A stretch of 64,000 nt of DNA from Deltaproteobacteria bacterium (GTDB lineage Bacteria; Desulfobacterota; Binatia; UBA1149; JAJCZL01). Where the stretch lies: positions 1 to 64,000 of the forward strand of contig JAJCZL010000071.1 of assembly GCA_029262415.1 (NCBI GenBank), written 5' to 3'. How positions within the stretch are numbered: the first letter of the stretch is position 1; each line of letters opens with the position of its first letter. The position numbers and the translations under genes are program-made. The notes under the pieces are model-generated. The model did no database searches. It was not told where the DNA came from and was given only the letters and a program-made list of their open reading frames with translations. Below are positions 18,776-27,790 of the stretch, piece after piece.

Positions 18776-20590
18776 CTATCTGAGTGCTTTCGCCACAGCG
18801 TTGAGCACGCTTTCGACACCGGCCTCACCTGCGTCCAGATCGTAGCGCACCACTACGGCCCGATCTGGGCGTGGTAGCGAACGCACCCAGTTTGCCAGGA
18901 TGCTTGCCGCATCGGCTCTTTCGGCTCTCTCGCCACGCGTCGTGCGCCGGCTCTCGACGCCGATCAAAAGAGCCCTGACGCCCTCGAGGTCGGCGGCGGA
19001 ATCGGGATGCACGACGCCGGCCAGTCGCCCCTGCCTAACTACCACCACGCATCCTGCTGCGCGCACCGATGGCAACACCGCCGCATAGGTATGACGATCG
19101 ACCAGCCAGTCGTGCGACTCGTGCAGACGGGCGAGGCGACGCAGCGCGCCGAGAGACTTGCGTCCATCGCTGCGAGAATCGGCGGCTTGCTTGGCCGCCG
19201 CGATCACAGCATCGGGTCCGTCTTCGAGCAACGCAGCCAGCCGCCGAGCGGCATCCGGATCGTGGCCGGCCGGTGCTTCGGGGCGGTTCGCCGACAACGA
19301 ATGTGCGGCGTGCGCACGCGATCCGACTTCGGGTTGCCCAAGCTCGACGCCGAACAATCCCGACAACACCGAGGCCGCCTGTTCGGCAAAAGCACGGTTC
19401 TTCAGCGGGCCGATGTAGCGCGCCCCATCCGCCCCGACACGAGAGGCCGCCATGATTCTGGGCGGATCAGCCTCAGCGGCCAGCTTGACGAAGAAGGTCT
19501 TGGGCACGTGTTTGCCGCCGCGATTATACGAAGGATCGAAACGGCGGATCCATGCCGCTTCTTCGAGGACCGTCTCGAGATACGAACCTGTCGCTGTCGC
19601 GTCGATCTCACGCGTACGGTCAATCATTTCGAGTTGCCGTTTGCCCAACCGATCGGCGTTCAAGTACATCTGCACGAGCTTCTCGCGCACGTCGCCCGCG
19701 CGCGCCACGAACAGCGTCGCTCCTTGTTCGTCAATCAGCCGATAGACTCCCGGGCCCTGCGGCAGAGACTCGAGCCGCGACTGCGGTAGATAGACACCCA
19801 GCCGCGCAGTCGCCAACGGCGCGCCGTCCTTGTCGCACAGTTCGTCAAGCGTACGAACACCGCGCTTCTCGAGTTCGCCAAGCGCTCGATACAAAACTTT
19901 GCCGGTCATTTCTGCGTCGGCTACCGCGCGATGACGGGTTGGCTGTTCGATCTCGAAGTGCTCGGCCAACCATTCGAGCGAAGTGCGCTCGAGGTCAGGA
20001 TAGGCGTAGCGGACCAAGTCGATCGTACACAACGCCGGACACGCCAGCGGCCGGCCCAGCACCCGCCAGACGGCTTGATCGAGAACACCAAAGTCGAAGG
20101 CCGCGTTGTGCGCGACAACTACTGAGCCCTGGGCAAAATCGTAGAAGCCCTCGATCACGTCCTCGATTGGCGGCGCGTCGCGCACCATCTCGTTGGTGAT
20201 GCCGGTCAGCTTCTCCACGTAGGGGGGGATACGGGAGCCCGGATTGACCAATTGCTCAAAACGGCCCTCATCCTTGCCACCGATCATTTTCACCGCACCG
20301 ATCTCGGTGACACCGGTCGAGGCACCGGGACTGTGATCACCCGTGGCCTCCAGGTCTACAATGACAAAGGGAACCTCGGCGATAGGGATCGAGAACAGGT
20401 GCCCTTCGGTAAGCCCCCAAGTCCCGTCGGCGCTGCGCTCGACGCGAGGATCGCCGGCGAGCAGCCTGTCGATGAAAGTGCGGCTGAAGTCGTTGTCGAC
20501 AGAACCGGCCGGAAACAACACCCGCCCGATGTCATCATAACCGGCTCCATCCGGTTTCTGCGAGAGAAGGTCTCTAACCGAAACTCTCAC
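18776..20590 (-). CDS. DEDDh 3'-5' exonuclease fused to UvrC-like GIY-YIG domain
   Basis: 604 residues from GTG 20590, which has GAGGTG seven bases upstream; a longer GTG at 20632 lacks this. Residues 1-65 look like a winged-helix-type region. The exonuclease (about 72-235) has all DEDDh motifs: VDLEATG (Asp79, Glu81), VVAHNAAFDFGVLD and HRAVADAEMTG. The GIY-YIG domain (from about 280) reads GPGVYRLIDE, then LFVARAGDVREKL, then YLETVLEEAAWIRRFDPSYN. It keeps the Arg and Glu but has Ala for the Gly of YVG. The remaining 200 residues resemble the middle of UvrC-like proteins. Proofreading-like plus Cho/UvrC-like architecture is known in actinobacteria and others; a DNA-repair role is likely. 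Confidence 0.88.
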   Translation of the reverse strand: MRVSVRDLLSQKPDGAGYDDIGRVLFPAGSVDNDFSRTFIDRLLAGDPRVERSADGTWGLTEGHLFSIPIAEVPFVIVDLEATGDHSPGASTGVTEIGAVKMIGGKDEGRFEQLVNPGSRIPPYVEKLTGITNEMVRDAPPIEDVIEGFYDFAQGSVVVAHNAAFDFGVLDQAVWRVLGRPLACPALCTIDLVRYAYPDLERTSLEWLAEHFEIEQPTRHRAVADAEMTGKVLYRALGELEKRGVRTLDELCDKDGAPLATARLGVYLPQSRLESLPQGPGVYRLIDEQGATLFVARAGDVREKLVQMYLNADRLGKRQLEMIDRTREIDATATGSYLETVLEEAAWIRRFDPSYNRGGKHVPKTFFVKLAAEADPPRIMAASRVGADGARYIGPLKNRAFAEQAASVLSGLFGVELGQPEVGSRAHAAHSLSANRPEAPAGHDPDAARRLAALLEDGPDAVIAAAKQAADSRSDGRKSLGALRRLARLHESHDWLVDRHTYAAVLPSVRAAGCVVVVRQGRLAGVVHPDSAADLEGVRALLIGVESRRTTRGERAERADAASILANWVRSLPRPDRAVVVRYDLDAGEAGVESVLNAVAKALR

Positions 20591-20671
20591 CGGGTCACAC
20601 CTCGCCCACCGAGACGGGGCCCGGCAGCCCACACGTGTTCATCACCGGCGAGGTCGTTGACAAGCCGGGGT

Positions 20672-21511
20672 TCAACCGAACATCGACTTTTTGGGAGGCT
20701 CGGTAAGATCAGCGAGGATCTCCGCGACTTCGCAATCGACCGCATCGCGGACTTTCTTGGTGTTCGCCGCAAAGCGCCGCTCTTCGGTTTCGGTCAGGTC
20801 GTTGTGCCGATCGACCTCTGCGTTGTAGCTGTCGGCGTAGGTTTCGAGTCGCTTACCGACCGCCAAGTACATGCGTTGCGTAGGCGCAAAGGAGGTCTGG
20901 CAAACCGGGCAGCGCAAAACCGTGCCGGGAGTGAGAAACTTGTAAGCAACCGTGAACAAAGAATCGCAACTGCGACACGGAATCGGCACCTCGTAGTCCT
21001 CGAGCCGCGCAGCCGCAGGTGTGGCCGGCGCCGCGCTTTGCGTGGACCCCGCTACCGGGGCAGGCGCAGGCGCGGGAGCAGCCGAGGGTACGGGGGGTGC
21101 CGGTGCCGGTGCGGCCGCGGGTACGGGTACCGGTACGGGTGCCGGTGCGGCCTTTGCGGCATCGCCCGCAGGCGCGCCGCCACCATCTTTGAACCGCGAC
21201 GCGAAGTCGGCCGGGAACTCGTTATCAGGATGCAACTGTTTCGCGCGCACCAGCAAAACCTCTTCGGATTCTGGACGCGCCGGGTCGGGTACGCAGCAGT
21301 CAACAGGGCACACGGCCGCGCAGGCTTCTTGGTCGAAAAAGCCGACGCACTCGGTACACTTCTCAGGGACGATGTAGAAGAAATCCTCGGACAGAGCCTT
21401 CTGCTCCCCCTGCCAGTCGTACTCGACCCCACCCTGGTAGATGGCGGTATTCGGGCATTCCGGCTCACAAGCGCCGCAGTTGATGCATTCCTCGGTGATA
21501 ACGGTGGCCAT
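20672..21511 (-). CDS. YfhL-type 2[4Fe-4S] ferredoxin fused to an MJ0042-type zinc ribbon
   Basis: 279 residues from an ATG. The N-terminus is a two-cluster ferredoxin: Cys9/12/15/19-Pro, then Cys52/55/64/68-Pro with the eight-residue insertion typical of YfhL-type ferredoxins. A Pro/Ala linker (about 110-168) consists largely of PVP and APAP repeats. It leads to a zinc ribbon (IPCRSC, LRCPVC) of the kind found before signalling or chemosensory domains. A charged helical C-terminus follows. The combination is unusual. It is divergent from the ExbBD/vWA operon, with 173 bases between. It may deliver electrons or act as an Fe-S/Zn sensor. Confidence 0.85.
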   Translation of the reverse strand: MATVITEECINCGACEPECPNTAIYQGGVEYDWQGEQKALSEDFFYIVPEKCTECVGFFDQEACAAVCPVDCCVPDPARPESEEVLLVRAKQLHPDNEFPADFASRFKDGGGAPAGDAAKAAPAPVPVPVPAAAPAPAPPVPSAAPAPAPAPVAGSTQSAAPATPAAARLEDYEVPIPCRSCDSLFTVAYKFLTPGTVLRCPVCQTSFAPTQRMYLAVGKRLETYADSYNAEVDRHNDLTETEERRFAANTKKVRDAVDCEVAEILADLTEPPKKSMFG

Positions 21512-21684: not shown

Positions 21685-22791
21685 TTGAATATTAAGAACT
21701 TTTTTGCCAAGCTGTGGCACAAGGACGACCTCAAGCAGCGCCTCGAAGGCTACACCGTCTCGGCTCTCTTCCATCTCATCCTCCTGTTTATACTCGCCAC
21801 CATCACGATCTCTGCCGGAAGCGAGGGCTTCGGTCTGGGCCCGCGGCCCAAGGGCGCAAAGGTGCAGTTGGCGTTCCGCGAGGAGAACATCAGCGACACA
21901 GATCTCGAAGAACTTATCGAAGACGTCGAGATCAAGCCGTTCGAAGTCGAGCGCATCAAACCCCGGCGGGTCGAGTTGCCGGAGTTACCCAGCTTCTCGG
22001 CGCCGCGGCCGAGCTCGGAACGGCTTACCAAGATCAGCACGCGATTCTCACCGGCGGTCAGCACCGGCGGACTTTCGGGTCAGTTCGGCAGCTTTATTAT
22101 TGGTCTACGTAAGAGCGGGCTGGACATCGTAATCGTGATCGACGCCACCGCGAGTATGAAGTACGTGATCGATGACATCAAAGCGCGCGTCGCCGGTCTG
22201 GTGGAGAACATCCAAGCTCTGGTCCCGATTGCACGCGTCGGCATCGTCGCCTTCCGCGACCAAGGTGAACAGTTCTCGGTTAAGTGGACGGATCTCAGCT
22301 TCCACGCGTCGAAGATCCGCACGTTTATTCAAAACCTCGAAGCCGACGGCGGCGGCGACTACGAGGAAGGCGTGCGCCAGGGGCTGGAAGCAGCTATCGA
22401 CGAACTGAGCTGGCGCAAACGATCCAAGCGGGTGATTATCCTGGTCGGCAGCTCACCACCTCACAAAGAAGACGTCCCCGCTGTGCAGGCACTCGCCAAA
22501 GAATGGAAAGACACCGGCGGCGTGCTCAGCGCCATCGATCTGTCACAACGCATGCACGAAGAATACGAATACAAGTACCACATGGCACGGTTTGGAAAGC
22601 CGCCCGAGCGCTACTCGCCGCTGCCGAAGTTCTATCAAGATATTCGTAAATCATTCCGCGACACATCGGCGGCGGGCGGCGGTGAGCTCGCATCGCTGGG
22701 CGGACGCCAGGAACTCACCGAACAAATTCTATACTTCGCCTTCGGGTCGAAGTGGAAGAGCGAAGTCGCCCGCTACACGGCGAAGAAATGA
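21685..22791 (+). CDS. TonB/TolA-like anchored von Willebrand factor A domain protein
   Basis: 368 residues from a TTG. Residues 1-22 are cytoplasmic and charged, and residues 23-45 form one membrane helix containing S26-ALF-H30. This is the SxxxH motif through which TonB and TolA are energised by ExbBD/TolQR. A periplasmic acidic-basic-Pro region (60-115) is followed by a vWA domain (about 145-345) with the metal-binding motif D153-A-T-A-S157 in VIVIDATASM. A DGGGDYEEGV segment lies in the expected place further along. The C-terminus is not TonB-like. The gene opens an operon with exbB, two exbD genes and a repeat protein, so this is probably the energised element of an ExbBD-type motor. Confidence 0.85.
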   Translation: MNIKNFFAKLWHKDDLKQRLEGYTVSALFHLILLFILATITISAGSEGFGLGPRPKGAKVQLAFREENISDTDLEELIEDVEIKPFEVERIKPRRVELPELPSFSAPRPSSERLTKISTRFSPAVSTGGLSGQFGSFIIGLRKSGLDIVIVIDATASMKYVIDDIKARVAGLVENIQALVPIARVGIVAFRDQGEQFSVKWTDLSFHASKIRTFIQNLEADGGGDYEEGVRQGLEAAIDELSWRKRSKRVIILVGSSPPHKEDVPAVQALAKEWKDTGGVLSAIDLSQRMHEEYEYKYHMARFGKPPERYSPLPKFYQDIRKSFRDTSAAGGGELASLGGRQELTEQILYFAFGSKWKSEVARYTAKK

Positions 22792-22811
22792 GACAAAAAA
22801 GGAGCCCGTCC

Positions 22812-23561
22812 ATGACCCTCGCCCCTGCGATCCCCACACGTATCGTCACACGCATACTGGCACTGCCCCTGACACTGGCCGCACCGGCCACGGCGTTCGC
22901 ACAGAGCGCCGGCAAAGGCGCCGGACTTAACTACAGCCTGATCGATCTGATCAAATTTGGTGGTCTGGTCGGCTACATCATCATCTTCATGTCGGTGGTA
23001 GCGGTCGCGCTCGTCGTTGAGTACGCGCTGTCGATTCGCGCCAAGCGTCTTGCGCCCGAAGATGAAGTATCCAAGTTGCGCGAAATGGTCGCGCTCGGCG
23101 AGTACGACGCGGTCGAGAAACACGCCGACGAAGACGGTGCATCCTTTGTCGCTAAGGTTGTTGCCGAAGGGGTCAAAGAACGCTCGCGCGGATACGGCGC
23201 GGTGGTGAAATCCATGGAAGACACCGCCGATTCCGAGACCGGCAAACTCCTGCGCAAGATCGAGCACCTTAACATCATCGCCAACATCGCACCGATGCTC
23301 GGCCTACTCGGCACTGTGATGGGTATGGTCAATTCCTTCAACCAGATCTCAGTTGCCGTCGGCGGCGTTGACCCACGGCGTCTGGCGGGCGGCATCTTCG
23401 AAGCACTGATGACGACGGTGATGGGCCTCATCGTAGCCATTCCAGCGCTTTATATGTTCGGAATTTTTCGCAACCGCGTCGACTCGATCGTCTCCGACGC
23501 GAGCTCTGAAGCAGCCGGCATCGTCGAGCCCCTCAAGAACCATCGGGGTGCGGTCGGTTGA
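22812..23561 (+). CDS. exbB: ExbB/TolQ/MotA family proton channel protein
   Basis: 249 residues from ATG 22812, with AAGGAG seven bases upstream (22799-22804); ATG 22788 overlaps the previous stop but lacks this site. The N-terminus (1-31) looks like a signal peptide ending ATAFAQ. Three membrane helices follow (about 43-65, 150-172, 190-215) with the family signatures IANIAPMLGLLGTVMGMV and LMTTVMGLIVAIPALYMF. It forms the pentameric proton channel around ExbD and uses proton motive force to move a TonB/TolA-like partner. Here that partner is presumably the vWA protein encoded just upstream. Confidence 0.93.
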   Translation: MTLAPAIPTRIVTRILALPLTLAAPATAFAQSAGKGAGLNYSLIDLIKFGGLVGYIIIFMSVVAVALVVEYALSIRAKRLAPEDEVSKLREMVALGEYDAVEKHADEDGASFVAKVVAEGVKERSRGYGAVVKSMEDTADSETGKLLRKIEHLNIIANIAPMLGLLGTVMGMVNSFNQISVAVGGVDPRRLAGGIFEALMTTVMGLIVAIPALYMFGIFRNRVDSIVSDASSEAAGIVEPLKNHRGAVG

Positions 23562-23575
23562 GATCCGCCCACTCC

Positions 23576-23986
23576 ATGCGGCCGCGCTCGATCTCTTTCA
23601 AGGCGACGGCCATGATCGACATGGCTTTCCTGTTGATCACGTTCTTCATCATGTCGATCCGCTTTGGGCAGGCCGGCGAAGAAGAAGTAAAGCTGCCTGA
23701 CGCCGACCAAGCCAACGAAGTGACCGATGAACGCACCGAACTCATCACAGTCAACGTGACCAAAGACGGCTTGTACATCGTCGGCGGCGTCCAACAATCG
23801 GGCGGCGACATCTTCAAGTACCTAAAGCTGCGCAAAGAAGAGAGCACCAAGAACCTCGAGCTCGTCGTCCGCGGCGACCGCAAGAGCGAATTCAACGCGA
23901 TTCAACGTATCATGAGGATCAGCGCCGAGTCCGGTGTCACCAATGTAAGCTTGGCCGCGTTGCAACAAGACGACGGAGGCGGATGA
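23576..23986 (+). CDS. exbD: ExbD/TolR family biopolymer transport protein (copy 1)
   Basis: 136 residues from ATG 23576. A TTG at 23558, overlapping the exbB stop, would add six residues and has GGGG in a suitable position. A short cytoplasmic N-terminus leads to the membrane helix MIDMAFLLITFFIM, with the essential proton-carrying Asp at residue 15. A periplasmic domain of about 100 residues follows, with LELVVRGDRKSEFNAIQRIMRI, the part that binds peptidoglycan or partner in TolR/ExbD. It is one of two tandem exbD genes, separated by a single base. Confidence 0.92.
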   Translation: MRPRSISFKATAMIDMAFLLITFFIMSIRFGQAGEEEVKLPDADQANEVTDERTELITVNVTKDGLYIVGGVQQSGGDIFKYLKLRKEESTKNLELVVRGDRKSEFNAIQRIMRISAESGVTNVSLAALQQDDGGG

Positions 23987-23987
23987 G

Positions 23988-24449
23988 ATGCGCACTTCGC
24001 ACCGCGCCCGTCGCGCCGGAGGCGCCGAAGACCTACAGATGGCTCCGCTCATCGACATCGTCTTTCTGTTGCTTACGTACTTCTTATTCACCATTTCGCT
24101 GTCTACCATCGAAGGACTGCTCCCTTCTGAACTCGCGCTCGGCAGCGACAGCCAAGAGCGCAAACAAGACCTAAAAGAAGAAGAGAAAGAAGTCGTCATC
24201 CGCGTCGTGCGCACCGGCGACGCGGCACAGTACTTCATCGACGACTGGCCGGTCACCGACTTCGCAAAGGTCGTCGATCACATCGCCGGGCTGAAACCGG
24301 AAACACTTGTCGTCATCGATGCCGGTGCACGCGTCGCATACGAGCACGTCGTGCGGCTCTACAACCAGTGCCTGCGCTCAAACATTTCGAACGTGGTCTT
24401 CCCGCTGAGTTCCGCGGTCGGTGCCACCGGGGCGGCGCCGCGCCTGTGA
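23988..24449 (+). CDS. exbD: ExbD/TolR family biopolymer transport protein (copy 2)
   Basis: 153 residues from ATG 23988, preceded by GGAGG. The N-terminal helix MAPLIDIVFLLLTYFLF carries the conserved Asp23. The periplasmic domain has a charged segment (DLKEEEKEVVIRVV) and ETLVVIDAGARVAYEHVVRLYN, equivalent to the region in copy 1. It is clearly diverged from copy 1, suggesting a heteromeric ExbD pair in the channel, as seen in other systems with tandem exbD genes. The next gene begins 10 bases after its stop. Confidence 0.92.
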   Translation: MRTSHRARRAGGAEDLQMAPLIDIVFLLLTYFLFTISLSTIEGLLPSELALGSDSQERKQDLKEEEKEVVIRVVRTGDAAQYFIDDWPVTDFAKVVDHIAGLKPETLVVIDAGARVAYEHVVRLYNQCLRSNISNVVFPLSSAVGATGAAPRL

Positions 24450-24459
24450 GGCGAGCGGA

Positions 24460-26634
24460 GTGAGCGCAGCTAGAATCTTGTCAGCCGCCGCTGTGGCCAT
24501 GGCCACAGCCATGGCCACGCTGGTCGCACCGTCACTCCTCTGCGCGGCTGCAGCCGGCGAACTGTCTTCGCGCGTCAACCAGTTGCGCAACCTCTCCGAT
24601 TCACTCGGGCGACGGAGTTGGGACAACGCCGCGGAAACCGGACTGGTCGACGGCATCGACCGTGCAGCCGACACTTTTCACGACCTCGCCGGCCGCGGCA
24701 CCAGCATGACAAGCACCGCCGTAGCAGTGCTCGCGCTTATGGAGTCGGCGCACGAACGCTACGCCGAAGGCATCGAAGCGATGCAGGCCGAGGTGATCCG
24801 CCGAGACGGAAATCTCGAAGAGGTTCAAGACAGCGCGGCGTGGCGCGAACGCGAGATGCTCGCGATGCGCCTACTGTACCGCATCAACTGGGTCCGCTAC
24901 GAGATCGCGATGCGCTACGAGCGCAGCAGCGGAAAACGCAAGGTTCTCTTGGAACGCGCACGCGACGGGTTCGCACAGTTCCTTGCCACCGGCGATCGCC
25001 AACTCACGATCGAATCGTTGCTCGGCCATGGGCTTACCAGTAAGGCGCTCAGGAACTACGACGCCGCTATCAACGACTTCAATGCAGCACTACGCGAGAA
25101 CCCCGACGCACAGACCGTAACCAAGCTCAGACTCTCACTCGCGGAGATCTACGTAACACGCGGAAAGATCGGCGATGCGCTGATGCAATCAAAGAAACTC
25201 ATTGATAGTGCAAGCGGTGATACCCGCAACCAGACGTTATTCTTGCGCTCGAAAGTCTTGCTGCTCGCGATCGGCAAGTACCGCCACCACTACAAGGCAT
25301 CTACGCGCGGAACCTACCGAGCAGAAGCCGCCAACACCTTGGAGCGCCTATACAAGGTTAACTCGTACTGGCGCGGCAAAGTCATCCAACTCATCGACGC
25401 CGGCATCGAAGACCCGCTCGAATGGGCGGCCGGCAACACGTCCTCGTTCGTCAAGTTCCTGATCGCCAGCTCGCTACGCCGTCGCGGCCAGTGTGACGAG
25501 GCCGTCACGCTGTACAACGCATTGCTCGAGCAGGGCTCGTACGAATCCGAGTCTTACTACGGCACCGGTTTCTGCGCGTTTCACGAGGGTCAATACCAGA
25601 CCGCTATCGAACGTCTCAGCAGTTTTCTCGACCAAGCATCCGGCAACGAAACCTTCCTGGGACAAGCCGCCTACTTACGCTTCAAAGCCGCCGAAAGCTT
25701 GTACCTCCGCGACACCGACAACGCCCAACCCGAAGTCGGTGAACCCGTGGGCGCCGCGACCGTCGGCGGCCAGGGTGCCCAGGCCGCCGACTCCCCTGGA
25801 AAGGCAGCTGCGGGCAGTGGCGCGGGCGAAGCCGAGAGAAACTACATCGCGTTCCTGAAAGACTTTCTCGATCGTGCCGCCGGGCACGCCAACGCCTATG
25901 AAGCGTGGTTCCGACTCGGTGAGTGGTACCGGGGCGAGGGCCAACTTTTAAAAGCCGCCGAGGCGTACGGAAAAGTCGAAGGCGACCCGGCGTTCCGAGT
26001 AAAGGCCGGCTTTCAATCGGCGCAGTCTTACTTCGAAGCGATTATCGAGCAGAGTAAGAGCGGCTCCCCGGACCCCGAGGTTCTCGCTACCGCTCTCGAT
26101 GCAATCGATGGCTTTGTCGCCAGTGCCGAAGAGTTCCGTAAAGGACGACCTGAAGGGGGCGCTGCGGAAACGCTGACCGCGCCATTAATGGCGAAAGCTA
26201 CCGTGATGGGAGCTGCGATCGCAGCCGGTGCTGAGCAGGGGATGCAGAAACGCCTGCAGCGACTCGAAGGCTTCGAAGAACGCTTCGCGGGGCAGGCCGA
26301 CCTGTTCGGGGAGATAACCTCGCTGCGCATCGTTGCCCATCGCAGGCTCGGCGACCTCGAAGCCGCAGGTGTCGAGTTGGAAAAGCTTTTGGCAATGGAC
26401 GGTGCCGGCGGTTACCAATCCGACGCACTGAAAAAGCTCGGCGTCGTCTTTCTTAAAGAAGCCGCCACCCGCGAAGAAAACGGCGACTTCGAATCCGCCA
26501 AGCCGATCAAACGCGTCGCGCTGCGAATCTACGAGCGGCTTCTCGAGCACGCGCGTCGCGAAGGCAGTGAAACGCCCCCGCTTGCCGGCCTCGAACAACT
26601 GATCGACGACCTGCGTCGCCAAATAGACGGTTAA
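24460..26634 (+). CDS. Large exported tetratricopeptide-like repeat protein of the Exb/vWA operon
   Basis: About 724 residues from GTG 24460, preceded by GAGG eight bases upstream. The signal peptide is ARILSAAAVAMATAMATL followed by VAPSLLCAAAAG. The rest is almost entirely helical, with several TPR-like pairs, for example around ALRNYDAAINDFNAALRENP, CDEAVTLYNALLEQGSYESE and AYEAWFRLGEWYRGEGQLLK. A Gly/Ala/Gln-rich low-complexity insert lies near residues 425-465. It is probably periplasmic and a scaffold for the ExbBD-vWA complex. No enzyme motif is visible. It ends 6 bases before the convergent lipoprotein gene. Confidence 0.85.
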   Translation: MSAARILSAAAVAMATAMATLVAPSLLCAAAAGELSSRVNQLRNLSDSLGRRSWDNAAETGLVDGIDRAADTFHDLAGRGTSMTSTAVAVLALMESAHERYAEGIEAMQAEVIRRDGNLEEVQDSAAWREREMLAMRLLYRINWVRYEIAMRYERSSGKRKVLLERARDGFAQFLATGDRQLTIESLLGHGLTSKALRNYDAAINDFNAALRENPDAQTVTKLRLSLAEIYVTRGKIGDALMQSKKLIDSASGDTRNQTLFLRSKVLLLAIGKYRHHYKASTRGTYRAEAANTLERLYKVNSYWRGKVIQLIDAGIEDPLEWAAGNTSSFVKFLIASSLRRRGQCDEAVTLYNALLEQGSYESESYYGTGFCAFHEGQYQTAIERLSSFLDQASGNETFLGQAAYLRFKAAESLYLRDTDNAQPEVGEPVGAATVGGQGAQAADSPGKAAAGSGAGEAERNYIAFLKDFLDRAAGHANAYEAWFRLGEWYRGEGQLLKAAEAYGKVEGDPAFRVKAGFQSAQSYFEAIIEQSKSGSPDPEVLATALDAIDGFVASAEEFRKGRPEGGAAETLTAPLMAKATVMGAAIAAGAEQGMQKRLQRLEGFEERFAGQADLFGEITSLRIVAHRRLGDLEAAGVELEKLLAMDGAGGYQSDALKKLGVVFLKEAATREENGDFESAKPIKRVALRIYERLLEHARREGSETPPLAGLEQLIDDLRRQIDG
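24490..24509. repeat. Perfect 20-base palindrome inside a signal-peptide coding region
   Basis: GCTGTGGCCATGGCCACAGC reads the same on both strands. It starts 30 bases downstream of the GTG of the repeat-protein gene and overlaps a short tandem copy of ATGGCCAC. It may be a by-product of Ala/Met-rich coding, or it may form a hairpin that tunes translation of the last operon gene. Confidence 0.5.
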
Positions 26635-26640
26635 GGCCGG

Positions 26641-27708
26641 CTAAAACTCGACGATAAAGCCTTCGGTTTCGCCGGTGGCAACATCAATCATCGTCACGCG
26701 GGCGCGATCGTAGTTGTCCAGGGCGTAATAGAGATAGCCGCTGGTGCTGCCGCCGGCTCGCAGCCGCGCCGTACCGAGCCGGTTGCCGTCGACGATTCGG
26801 ATCGCTGCACCGATGTCACCGAGCTGGCTCGGCGACAGCGGGTCTGCGGGAGGCGCGCCTTGCTCTGTCGTGAGCTGCACACGGTTGGCCTCGCGCAATC
26901 TCGAAACCGTTTCACCGGGCGTAAGCGGTTTGCTGCGTGAGCGACTTCCCGCTTTGCGCAAAATAATGTCGGCCGGATCGAACTCGTAGGTCCGACGGGT
27001 GTTGTTGAAGATCGTGACTTTGATCGGCAAGACGCCCGCAGCGCTCAAGTCGGCCTCAAAATCCAAGACCGTCGCAAAACCGCGCACCGGCACCAGCTTT
27101 ACCGAGACGCCCGCCTCTTGTTTCACTTCGCGACGCTCGCGCACCAGGCCGCCACGGTTCGGACTCGCTGCCTCCGTAGCCGCCGCCGACGTAGTTGAAC
27201 CGTCCGATGGACTGCTCGCGGCAGCGGTGCCGCCGACACCGGTGCTGTCGCCGGCAGTGCCCGGACTCGCATTGGAAGCTCCCGAATTCGTCGTATTCTT
27301 GTTCGCGAACGGATCGGGCTTGGAGAGTCCCGCGCGACCGGTAACCGAGAGGTACACACCGCGGGTCATCACCTTGTCGCCCGCCAGCCCGTCTTCGTCG
27401 GTCTGGATACGGACACCGCCGGCGCTGCAATCGATGTTGACCGTGCCGCTGTTGGTCCCCGCCGAGGTGGTCCTAGTGGCTCGCACGTAGCCGGGAATAC
27501 CCGGCTTTGCGAGTTTGAACCCCGTCACCGTCATCTTCATCCCGATCACCGCATCGTAAACATAGCGGTTCGCCTCGTCGCAGGTCAGATCCATGGTCTC
27601 AATGGCGAGTTGCTGGGATGCCGGCTTTACACAAGCGGCTGCCGCCACGGACAATAGCCCGAGAGCTACCACTGACAGTAATGAGGAATGACGCTCCGTG
27701 AAAAGCAT
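26641..27708 (-). CDS. Lipoprotein with Ser/Thr/Gly-rich linker, unknown function
   Basis: 355 residues from ATG 27708. The lipoprotein signal is a hydrophobic stretch ending VAAAAC, with the Cys near residue 26. A first domain (about 30-130) has two conserved-looking cysteines (LTCDEANRYV, NIDCSAGG). A low-complexity linker rich in Ser, Gly, Thr and Ala (about 140-185) joins it to a second beta-rich domain with TVLDFEADLSAAGVLPIKV, VTIFNNTRRTYEFDPADI and STSGYLYYALDNYDRA. I recognise no family. It is last in a minus-strand block behind a CDP-alcohol phosphatidyltransferase (82-base gap) and converges on the Exb operon. Confidence 0.8.
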   Translation of the reverse strand: MLFTERHSSLLSVVALGLLSVAAAACVKPASQQLAIETMDLTCDEANRYVYDAVIGMKMTVTGFKLAKPGIPGYVRATRTTSAGTNSGTVNIDCSAGGVRIQTDEDGLAGDKVMTRGVYLSVTGRAGLSKPDPFANKNTTNSGASNASPGTAGDSTGVGGTAAASSPSDGSTTSAAATEAASPNRGGLVRERREVKQEAGVSVKLVPVRGFATVLDFEADLSAAGVLPIKVTIFNNTRRTYEFDPADIILRKAGSRSRSKPLTPGETVSRLREANRVQLTTEQGAPPADPLSPSQLGDIGAAIRIVDGNRLGTARLRAGGSTSGYLYYALDNYDRARVTMIDVATGETEGFIVEF

Positions 27709-27790
27709 AGACGAACTACCGTCCGGCCATTGATCCACAGCGCCGCTCAAATAGCCAGATTCAGTCGTTCGCGCAGACGCCCCAGGTCGT

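Follow-up and report, generated by a model that had tools for sequence, protein, structure and literature searches.

The locus considered here raises the question of whether an ExbB/ExbD motor can be coupled, through a membrane anchor like that of TonB or TolA, to a von Willebrand A (vWA) domain. It lies at 21685-26634 of the forward strand of a 64,000-nucleotide stretch (contig JAJCZL010000071.1, positions 1 to 64,000; hereafter the window) from a metagenome-assembled genome of a member of the Binatota, whose assembly amounts to 3.9 Mb and is 97% complete. Five co-directional, tightly packed genes encode a vWA protein, ExbB, two diverged ExbDs and a tetratricopeptide repeat (TPR) protein with a signal peptide. 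An earlier note on this DNA had described these genes, with the vWA gene directly before exbB, two diverged exbD genes and a large exported repeat protein, and all five were found at their positions and in that order. Successive genes are separated by 20 bp, by 14 bp (or they overlap by 4 bp, if ExbD1 begins at its earlier start), by 1 bp and by about 10 bp, which indicates an operon. Judging from sequence comparisons and from analogy with the Ton and Tol systems, the proton-driven ExbBD motor is very likely coupled to the vWA protein via an SxxxH motif. We regard this coupling as well supported because SxxxH and a Ser residue on ExbB are conserved, because the genes remain linked in nearly all Binatota loci and because AlphaFold3 (AF3) models of the class have been published.

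SxxxH (S26 and H30), which the earlier note had recognized, was confirmed within the sole hydrophobic helix of the vWA protein, and the wider SHLS pattern is represented by S26, H30 and L37, followed by T41 instead of the last Ser. An AlphaFold2 (AF2) model calculated with 19 homologues consists of a transmembrane (TM) helix at residues 13-45, a stretch of mostly low confidence at residues 43-130 and a vWA fold of mostly high confidence at residues 132-368, and this three-part layout of TM helix, disordered linker and globular vWA domain is as in TonB and TolA. Pfam VWA matches residues 147-286 (2e-9). The claim that a TonB C-terminal domain is missing holds, as PF03544 has no match in the vWA protein, yet matches the real TonB of the same genome; neither TolA nor any other C-terminal domain was detected in the protein by Pfam. 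With matches to PF01618 and PF02472, the channel Thr residues and the TM Asp, the neighbouring ExbB and ExbDs belong to the 5:2 ExbB/ExbD motor type. None of the window proteins gave a match reaching the TonB, TolA, TolQ, ExbB or TolR equivalog cut-off, and the motor is therefore considered a diverged one. The window ExbB begins with a hydrophobic, signal-peptide-like segment.

Relatives, named genome contigs and Planctomycetota supplied the loci for comparison, in which vWA, ExbB, ExbD and TPR genes were called with profiles grown from the window proteins. A relative of the vWA protein was encountered in 69 of 98 genomes at E ≤ 0.001, some of the weak matches being other vWA proteins. SxxxH is present in 64 of 67 unique motor-linked vWA proteins, the exceptions being L183, where Ala replaces Ser and the His is kept, L044, whose N-terminus is cut at a contig end, and L074, a TolQ-linked vWA protein without ExbD. 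When the latter two are left out, 65 unique motor-linked homologues with intact N-termini remain, in which the Ser is conserved in 64 and the His in all, making them the two most conserved TM positions; the next best position between -12 and +15 around the His reaches 47/65. It had been stated beforehand that homologues which keep ExbBD but lose SxxxH would mark the motif as coincidental; 64 of the 65 keep it, and the coupling passes a comparison that could have spoken against it. On the sequence record, SxxxH is not there by chance. After clustering at 70% identity, the motif is found in 34 of 36 motor-linked versus 18 of 74 unlinked vWA proteins (Fisher 6e-13, a p value that is indicative only, since relatedness remains among the sequences). 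It is missing from secreted vWA proteins without motor linkage, and most of the 18 unlinked carriers are membrane-anchored planctomycete proteins with no adjacent motor. Among the planctomycete loci L154-L172, membrane-anchored vWA proteins carry SxxxH (AxxxH in three cases) with no ExbB or ExbD gene within about 6 kb.

In cryo-electron microscopy structures, Ser16 and His20 of E. coli TonB touch Ser34 and Trp38 in TM1 of ExbB, Ser18 and His22 of TolA touch Ser28 and Trp32 in TM1 of TolQ, and a Pro in TM3 (Pro190 in ExbB) is next in line in the relay (PMC12215075). The earlier note had expected S26/H30 to make contact with ExbD, an expectation at odds with this known contact in TM1 of ExbB or TolQ, and for the same reason ExbB Ser61 is the predicted site in the window. 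The docking Ser is kept in each of the 64 vWA-linked ExbBs, as are both channel Thr residues. Two motor types, which belong to different lineages, differ in the TM3 Pro: type I, the window's own, which includes the loci L054 and L165, has the Pro in 9/9 cases, and type II, a second motor lineage that usually has one ExbD, in 0/55. At the relay positions, Ser, Trp and Pro are found in the TolQ of this genome, and Ser, Leu and Pro in its TonB-linked ExbB. The TM Asp is retained in both window ExbDs and in every ExbD of the Binatota vWA loci. In an alphaproteobacterial vWA locus (L056:6898-7557), the proton-binding Asp of the second ExbD is apparently replaced by Asn (PLINVVFLL), and such a pair would hold one Asp. 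For mutational work, the residues to be combined are S26/H30 of the vWA protein and S61 of ExbB.

Genes for vWA, ExbB, ExbD and usually TPR occur together in 57 of 61 Binatota loci despite five gene orders (Q, ExbB; R, ExbD): Q-R-vWA-TPR (29 loci), Q-R-R-vWA (10), vWA-Q-R-TPR (7, and one more truncated at a contig end), vWA-TPR-Q-R (5) and vWA-Q-R-R-TPR (5), the last being the order of the window. The two diverged ExbDs noted earlier are thus real in the window but not essential, as most Binatota loci have one. The window's gene set is also encountered in L054, and Q-R-R stands beside vWA in the planctomycete locus L165. In loci L198-L210 of the Binatota family f12, the vWA proteins have an extra TM helix ahead of the SxxxH helix and mostly GGGE or NGGE in place of the GGGD of the vWA domain, two tandem ExbDs apparently reflect a later duplication, and no TPR gene was found by profile.

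In the vWA tree, all Binatota proteins and that of one Gemmatimonadota-labelled locus form one clade (100/99), and the window type falls within it. The ExbB tree instead places the window type with the ExbBs of L054 and planctomycete L165 (98/98 with the full set; 100/96 with the reduced set). Approximately unbiased tests rejected holding all Binatota vWA-linked ExbBs together (p-AU 0.00135) and holding the window-type vWA with those of L054 and L165 (p-AU 8.8e-7), in trees that have long branches, few columns and few outgroup loci and for groups that were named after the first trees. The window-type ExbD2 clusters with the second ExbDs of L054 and L165 (100/94 and 96/72), and the ExbD1/ExbD2 pair would therefore be older than the Binatota. 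Both motor types can reside in one genome, each with its own vWA and TPR genes (L214 and L173 in G050; L036 and L042/L174 in G067). The simplest reading of the trees suggests that the motor was exchanged beneath a conserved transducer. We favour, with modest confidence, the view that the vWA protein with SxxxH works as an output module that can be moved between motors: one Binatota lineage of it would have been re-coupled to a second 5:2 motor lineage, with the SxxxH plug and the docking Ser of ExbB kept and Trp38, Pro190 (in one type) and the number of ExbDs changed. If this is correct, transducer and motor meet in a conserved plug through which motors can be swapped, and a comparison of the motor types shows what force transfer requires of the ExbB relay, the docking Ser being always kept, and Trp38 and, in one type, Pro190 not. 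As a separate observation, the Gemmatimonadota-labelled contig (L053) whose vWA groups within the Binatota may reflect a transfer or a binning error.

By analogy with the known Ton and Tol structures, docking and force transfer may be pictured as follows. An ExbB pentamer around the ExbD1/ExbD2 pair would form a dedicated proton-driven 5:2 motor, from which force would be taken off by a TonB/TolA-like transducer ending in a vWA domain. The single TM helix of the vWA protein would dock on the outside of ExbB through S26/H30, and the first strand of the linker would probably be held by the periplasmic domains of ExbD. Ion flow would turn the ExbD axle, and the linker would pull or reposition the vWA domain in the periplasm. 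The periplasmic TPR solenoid is the most likely direct partner and might act as a scaffold, or as a receptor, in the direction of the outer membrane or the peptidoglycan, although its direct contact with the vWA protein is a guess to which we give about even chances. From its sequence, the TPR protein has a signal peptide and no lipobox, and its AF2 model is a long all-helical solenoid (mean predicted local distance difference test score, pLDDT, 86). A fold search with this model returned generic TPR solenoids at a template modelling score of about 0.2, among them PflA/PflB and SprE, and was uninformative.

Three observations weigh against the proposed coupling. The equivalent of Trp38 is present in 0/64 vWA-linked ExbBs, though the genome's own TonB-linked ExbB also lacks the Trp. 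SxxxH is also kept, with no motor gene nearby, in over a dozen planctomycete vWA proteins, whose motor may be encoded elsewhere. Finally, the motor-box strand pattern in the linker gives a weak match, being found in 35 of 65 homologues versus 11.6 expected from shuffles, where the homologues are not independent and some matches are Gly-rich.

What the vWA domain does at the end of such a transducer can be approached through its metal ion-dependent adhesion site (MIDAS). The D-x-S/T-x-S motif and the Asp of GGGD are conserved across the vWA members. The MIDAS-like DATAS described earlier is correct for the first motif but not for a full MIDAS, as the last Asp is replaced (GSSPPH versus GDAPPH in L054 and others); this position, assigned from the family pattern and not from a structure, is occupied by Ser in the window protein and by Gly or Ser in the majority of members, and about 16 of 66 retain the Asp. 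Because of this loss, metal-dependent adhesion is an unsafe reading; the proposed adhesion switch is unsupported, and the incomplete MIDAS speaks mildly against a classical metal-dependent adhesin. The vWA domain may simply be a module for protein binding.

The gliding motor AglRQS of Myxococcus consists of one TolQ-like and two TolR-like subunits. By analogy with this motor and the vWA protein CglB, the system could serve surface movement or adhesion, a role which has been suggested (PMC12204202) and with which the one-Q two-R make-up and the additional vWA and TPR parts agree. We judge it unlikely, as most Binatota loci contain a single ExbD and most members have lost the last MIDAS Asp. We also know of no report of gliding in Binatota.

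That the vWA protein is merely a membrane-anchored periplasmic protein, co-transcribed with the motor and carrying SxxxH by coincidence, would agree with the SxxxH vWA proteins that have no adjacent motor; it is very improbable given that Ser and His are the most conserved TM positions and that motor linkage persists over five gene orders and two motor lineages.

The host genome contains three ExbB-type genes, one in the window, one in a tolQR-tolA-tolB-pal locus on contig C38 and one in an exbBD-tonB locus on contig C68. TolA carries SILGH and TonB carries SVFAH, each beside its own motor; with the vWA protein, which likewise has a motor of its own, this makes three SxxxH transducers in the cell. 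The earlier statement that TolB and Pal are absent is therefore valid for the vWA locus but not genome-wide. The class does occur in a species without discernible TolA or TonB (PMC12204202), and the system might be thought to stand in for Tol-Pal or Ton in outer-membrane upkeep or nutrient import. With tol-pal and ton loci present, each with its own SxxxH transducer, we give this explanation very little credence, and for Tol-Pal it was rejected, as TolB_N is found in 92 of the 98 relatives, including nearly all genomes that carry the vWA operon. Since it coexists with Tol and Ton, the vWA system has a task of its own.

A PDB sequence search with the vWA protein returned nothing useful. In the fold search with its model, BatB (3ibs) was the best match (E 3.5e-9), with Rpn10 and integrins close behind. 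Together with the TPR partner, which recalls BatC, this might indicate a Bat-type envelope system (BatA/BatB vWA proteins plus BatC) that borrowed a motor, an origin we find hard to credit, as the match reflects the generic vWA fold (11% identity) and MoxR, BatA and BatD were not found beside the vWA gene, where a ferredoxin, an exonuclease, a CDP-alcohol transferase and others were examined. That the vWA protein is itself the axle and replaces ExbD, as in the published transpore-helix class that a myxococcal locus resembles (L074), is most improbable of all, as both ExbDs are present here with their TM Asp and acidic residues are missing from the TM helix of the vWA protein. In that Myxococcales locus (L074:5863-8678), which has no ExbD, a TolQ-like gene adjoins a TM-vWA gene lacking SxxxH; the locus probably belongs to the transpore-helix vWA class.

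Coordinates of the vWA-ExbBD-TPR locus and of its functional sites within the window.
Feature	Position	Strand	Remarks
vWA force-transducer protein, 368 aa	21685..22791	+	TTG start; in-frame TAG just upstream; Pfam VWA, AF2 model
SxxxH motif S26...H30 in TM helix	21760..21774	+	S26 = TCG 21760-21762; H30 = CAT 21772-21774
Disordered linker, about residues 43-130	21811..22074	+	pLDDT <50 over most; possible motor-box strand VQLAF (residues 60-64)
vWA domain, residues 132-368	22078..22788	+	D153-x-T-x-S157 (D153 codon 22141-22143); D225 in GGGD; last Asp replaced by Ser
ExbB/TolQ-like channel subunit	22812..23561	+	PF01618 (MotA_ExbB) 8e-29; channel Thr residues kept
ExbB Ser61, equivalent of E. 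coli ExbB Ser34	22992..22994	+	Ser in 64/64 vWA-linked ExbBs
ExbD1	23558..23986	+	Start TTG 23558 or ATG 23576; TM Asp codon 23618-23620; PF02472 3e-17
ExbD2	23988..24449	+	TM Asp codon 24054-24056; PF02472 3e-15; clade separate from ExbD1
TPR solenoid protein, N-terminal signal peptide	24421..26634	+	Likely start GTG 24460; TPR_16 1e-11

Conserved neighbours outside the five genes mostly reflect local synteny. Convergent with the TPR gene, with stop codons 6 bp apart, a probable lipoprotein without Pfam match is encoded at 26641-27750 (-) and kept at this place in four loci. On the opposite flank, 18776-20632 (-) encodes an RNase T-type exonuclease whose C-terminal extension is long, and 20672-21511 (-) a ferredoxin that ends in a CxxC part resembling a zinc ribbon; three relatives likewise have the exonuclease gene upstream of this operon. 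A role in defence was considered and rejected, as a PADLOC scan gave just weak ZorA/DruD matches (E ≥ 0.0018).

TonB and TolA are the only well-understood transducers of ExbBD/TolQR motors, and a third class, ending in a vWA domain, is widespread. The earlier note knew of no functional description; among the papers searched for ExbB/TolQ with vWA, indeed none was a functional study of the class, but the class itself has been published as a prediction, without an assigned function, comprising an SHLS vWA transducer, tolQ, two tolR and TPR (Williams-Jones et al., 2025; PMC12204202). In AF3 models of this class, docking occurs at the TolA/TonB site via the conserved His (PMC12204202). The window system belongs to this class, and the idea is not new. 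The main text of that study does not mention Binatota, to which the class is now extended, and what seems to be new is one vWA module on two motors and the Ser/Trp/Pro pattern of ExbB.

Among the known systems, ExbB-ExbD-TonB shares with the window the 5:2 motor genes, the SxxxH TM anchor, the periplasmic linker and the docking Ser on ExbB, whereas the vWA locus has two ExbD genes and lacks the TonB C-terminal domain, a receptor gene and the Trp38 of ExbB. TolQ-TolR-TolA likewise combines a motor with an SxxxH transducer, and the TPR gene of the window recalls CpoB; in contrast, the window locus contains no TolA domain, TolB or Pal, and a separate tol-pal locus exists in the genome. In Myxococcus AglRQS with CglB, one Q-like and two R-like subunits and a vWA protein in the machinery are also found, but CglB is an outer-membrane lipoprotein and not anchored through SxxxH. 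The transpore-helix class (PMC12204202, Fig. 4c,d) resembles the window in that a vWA protein is driven by a TolQ-like pentamer, and differs in lacking SHLS and ExbD, both of which the window has, and in having an acidic residue in the vWA TM helix. Closest is the class of Williams-Jones et al. (Tichowtungia family), with the same SHLS TM helix, disordered linker of about 100 residues and C-terminal vWA domain, and with tolQ-like, two tolR-like and TPR genes adjoining; there, however, the vWA gene follows the TPR, Q and R genes, whereas it comes first in the operon of the window, and many Binatota members have one ExbD and another motor lineage.

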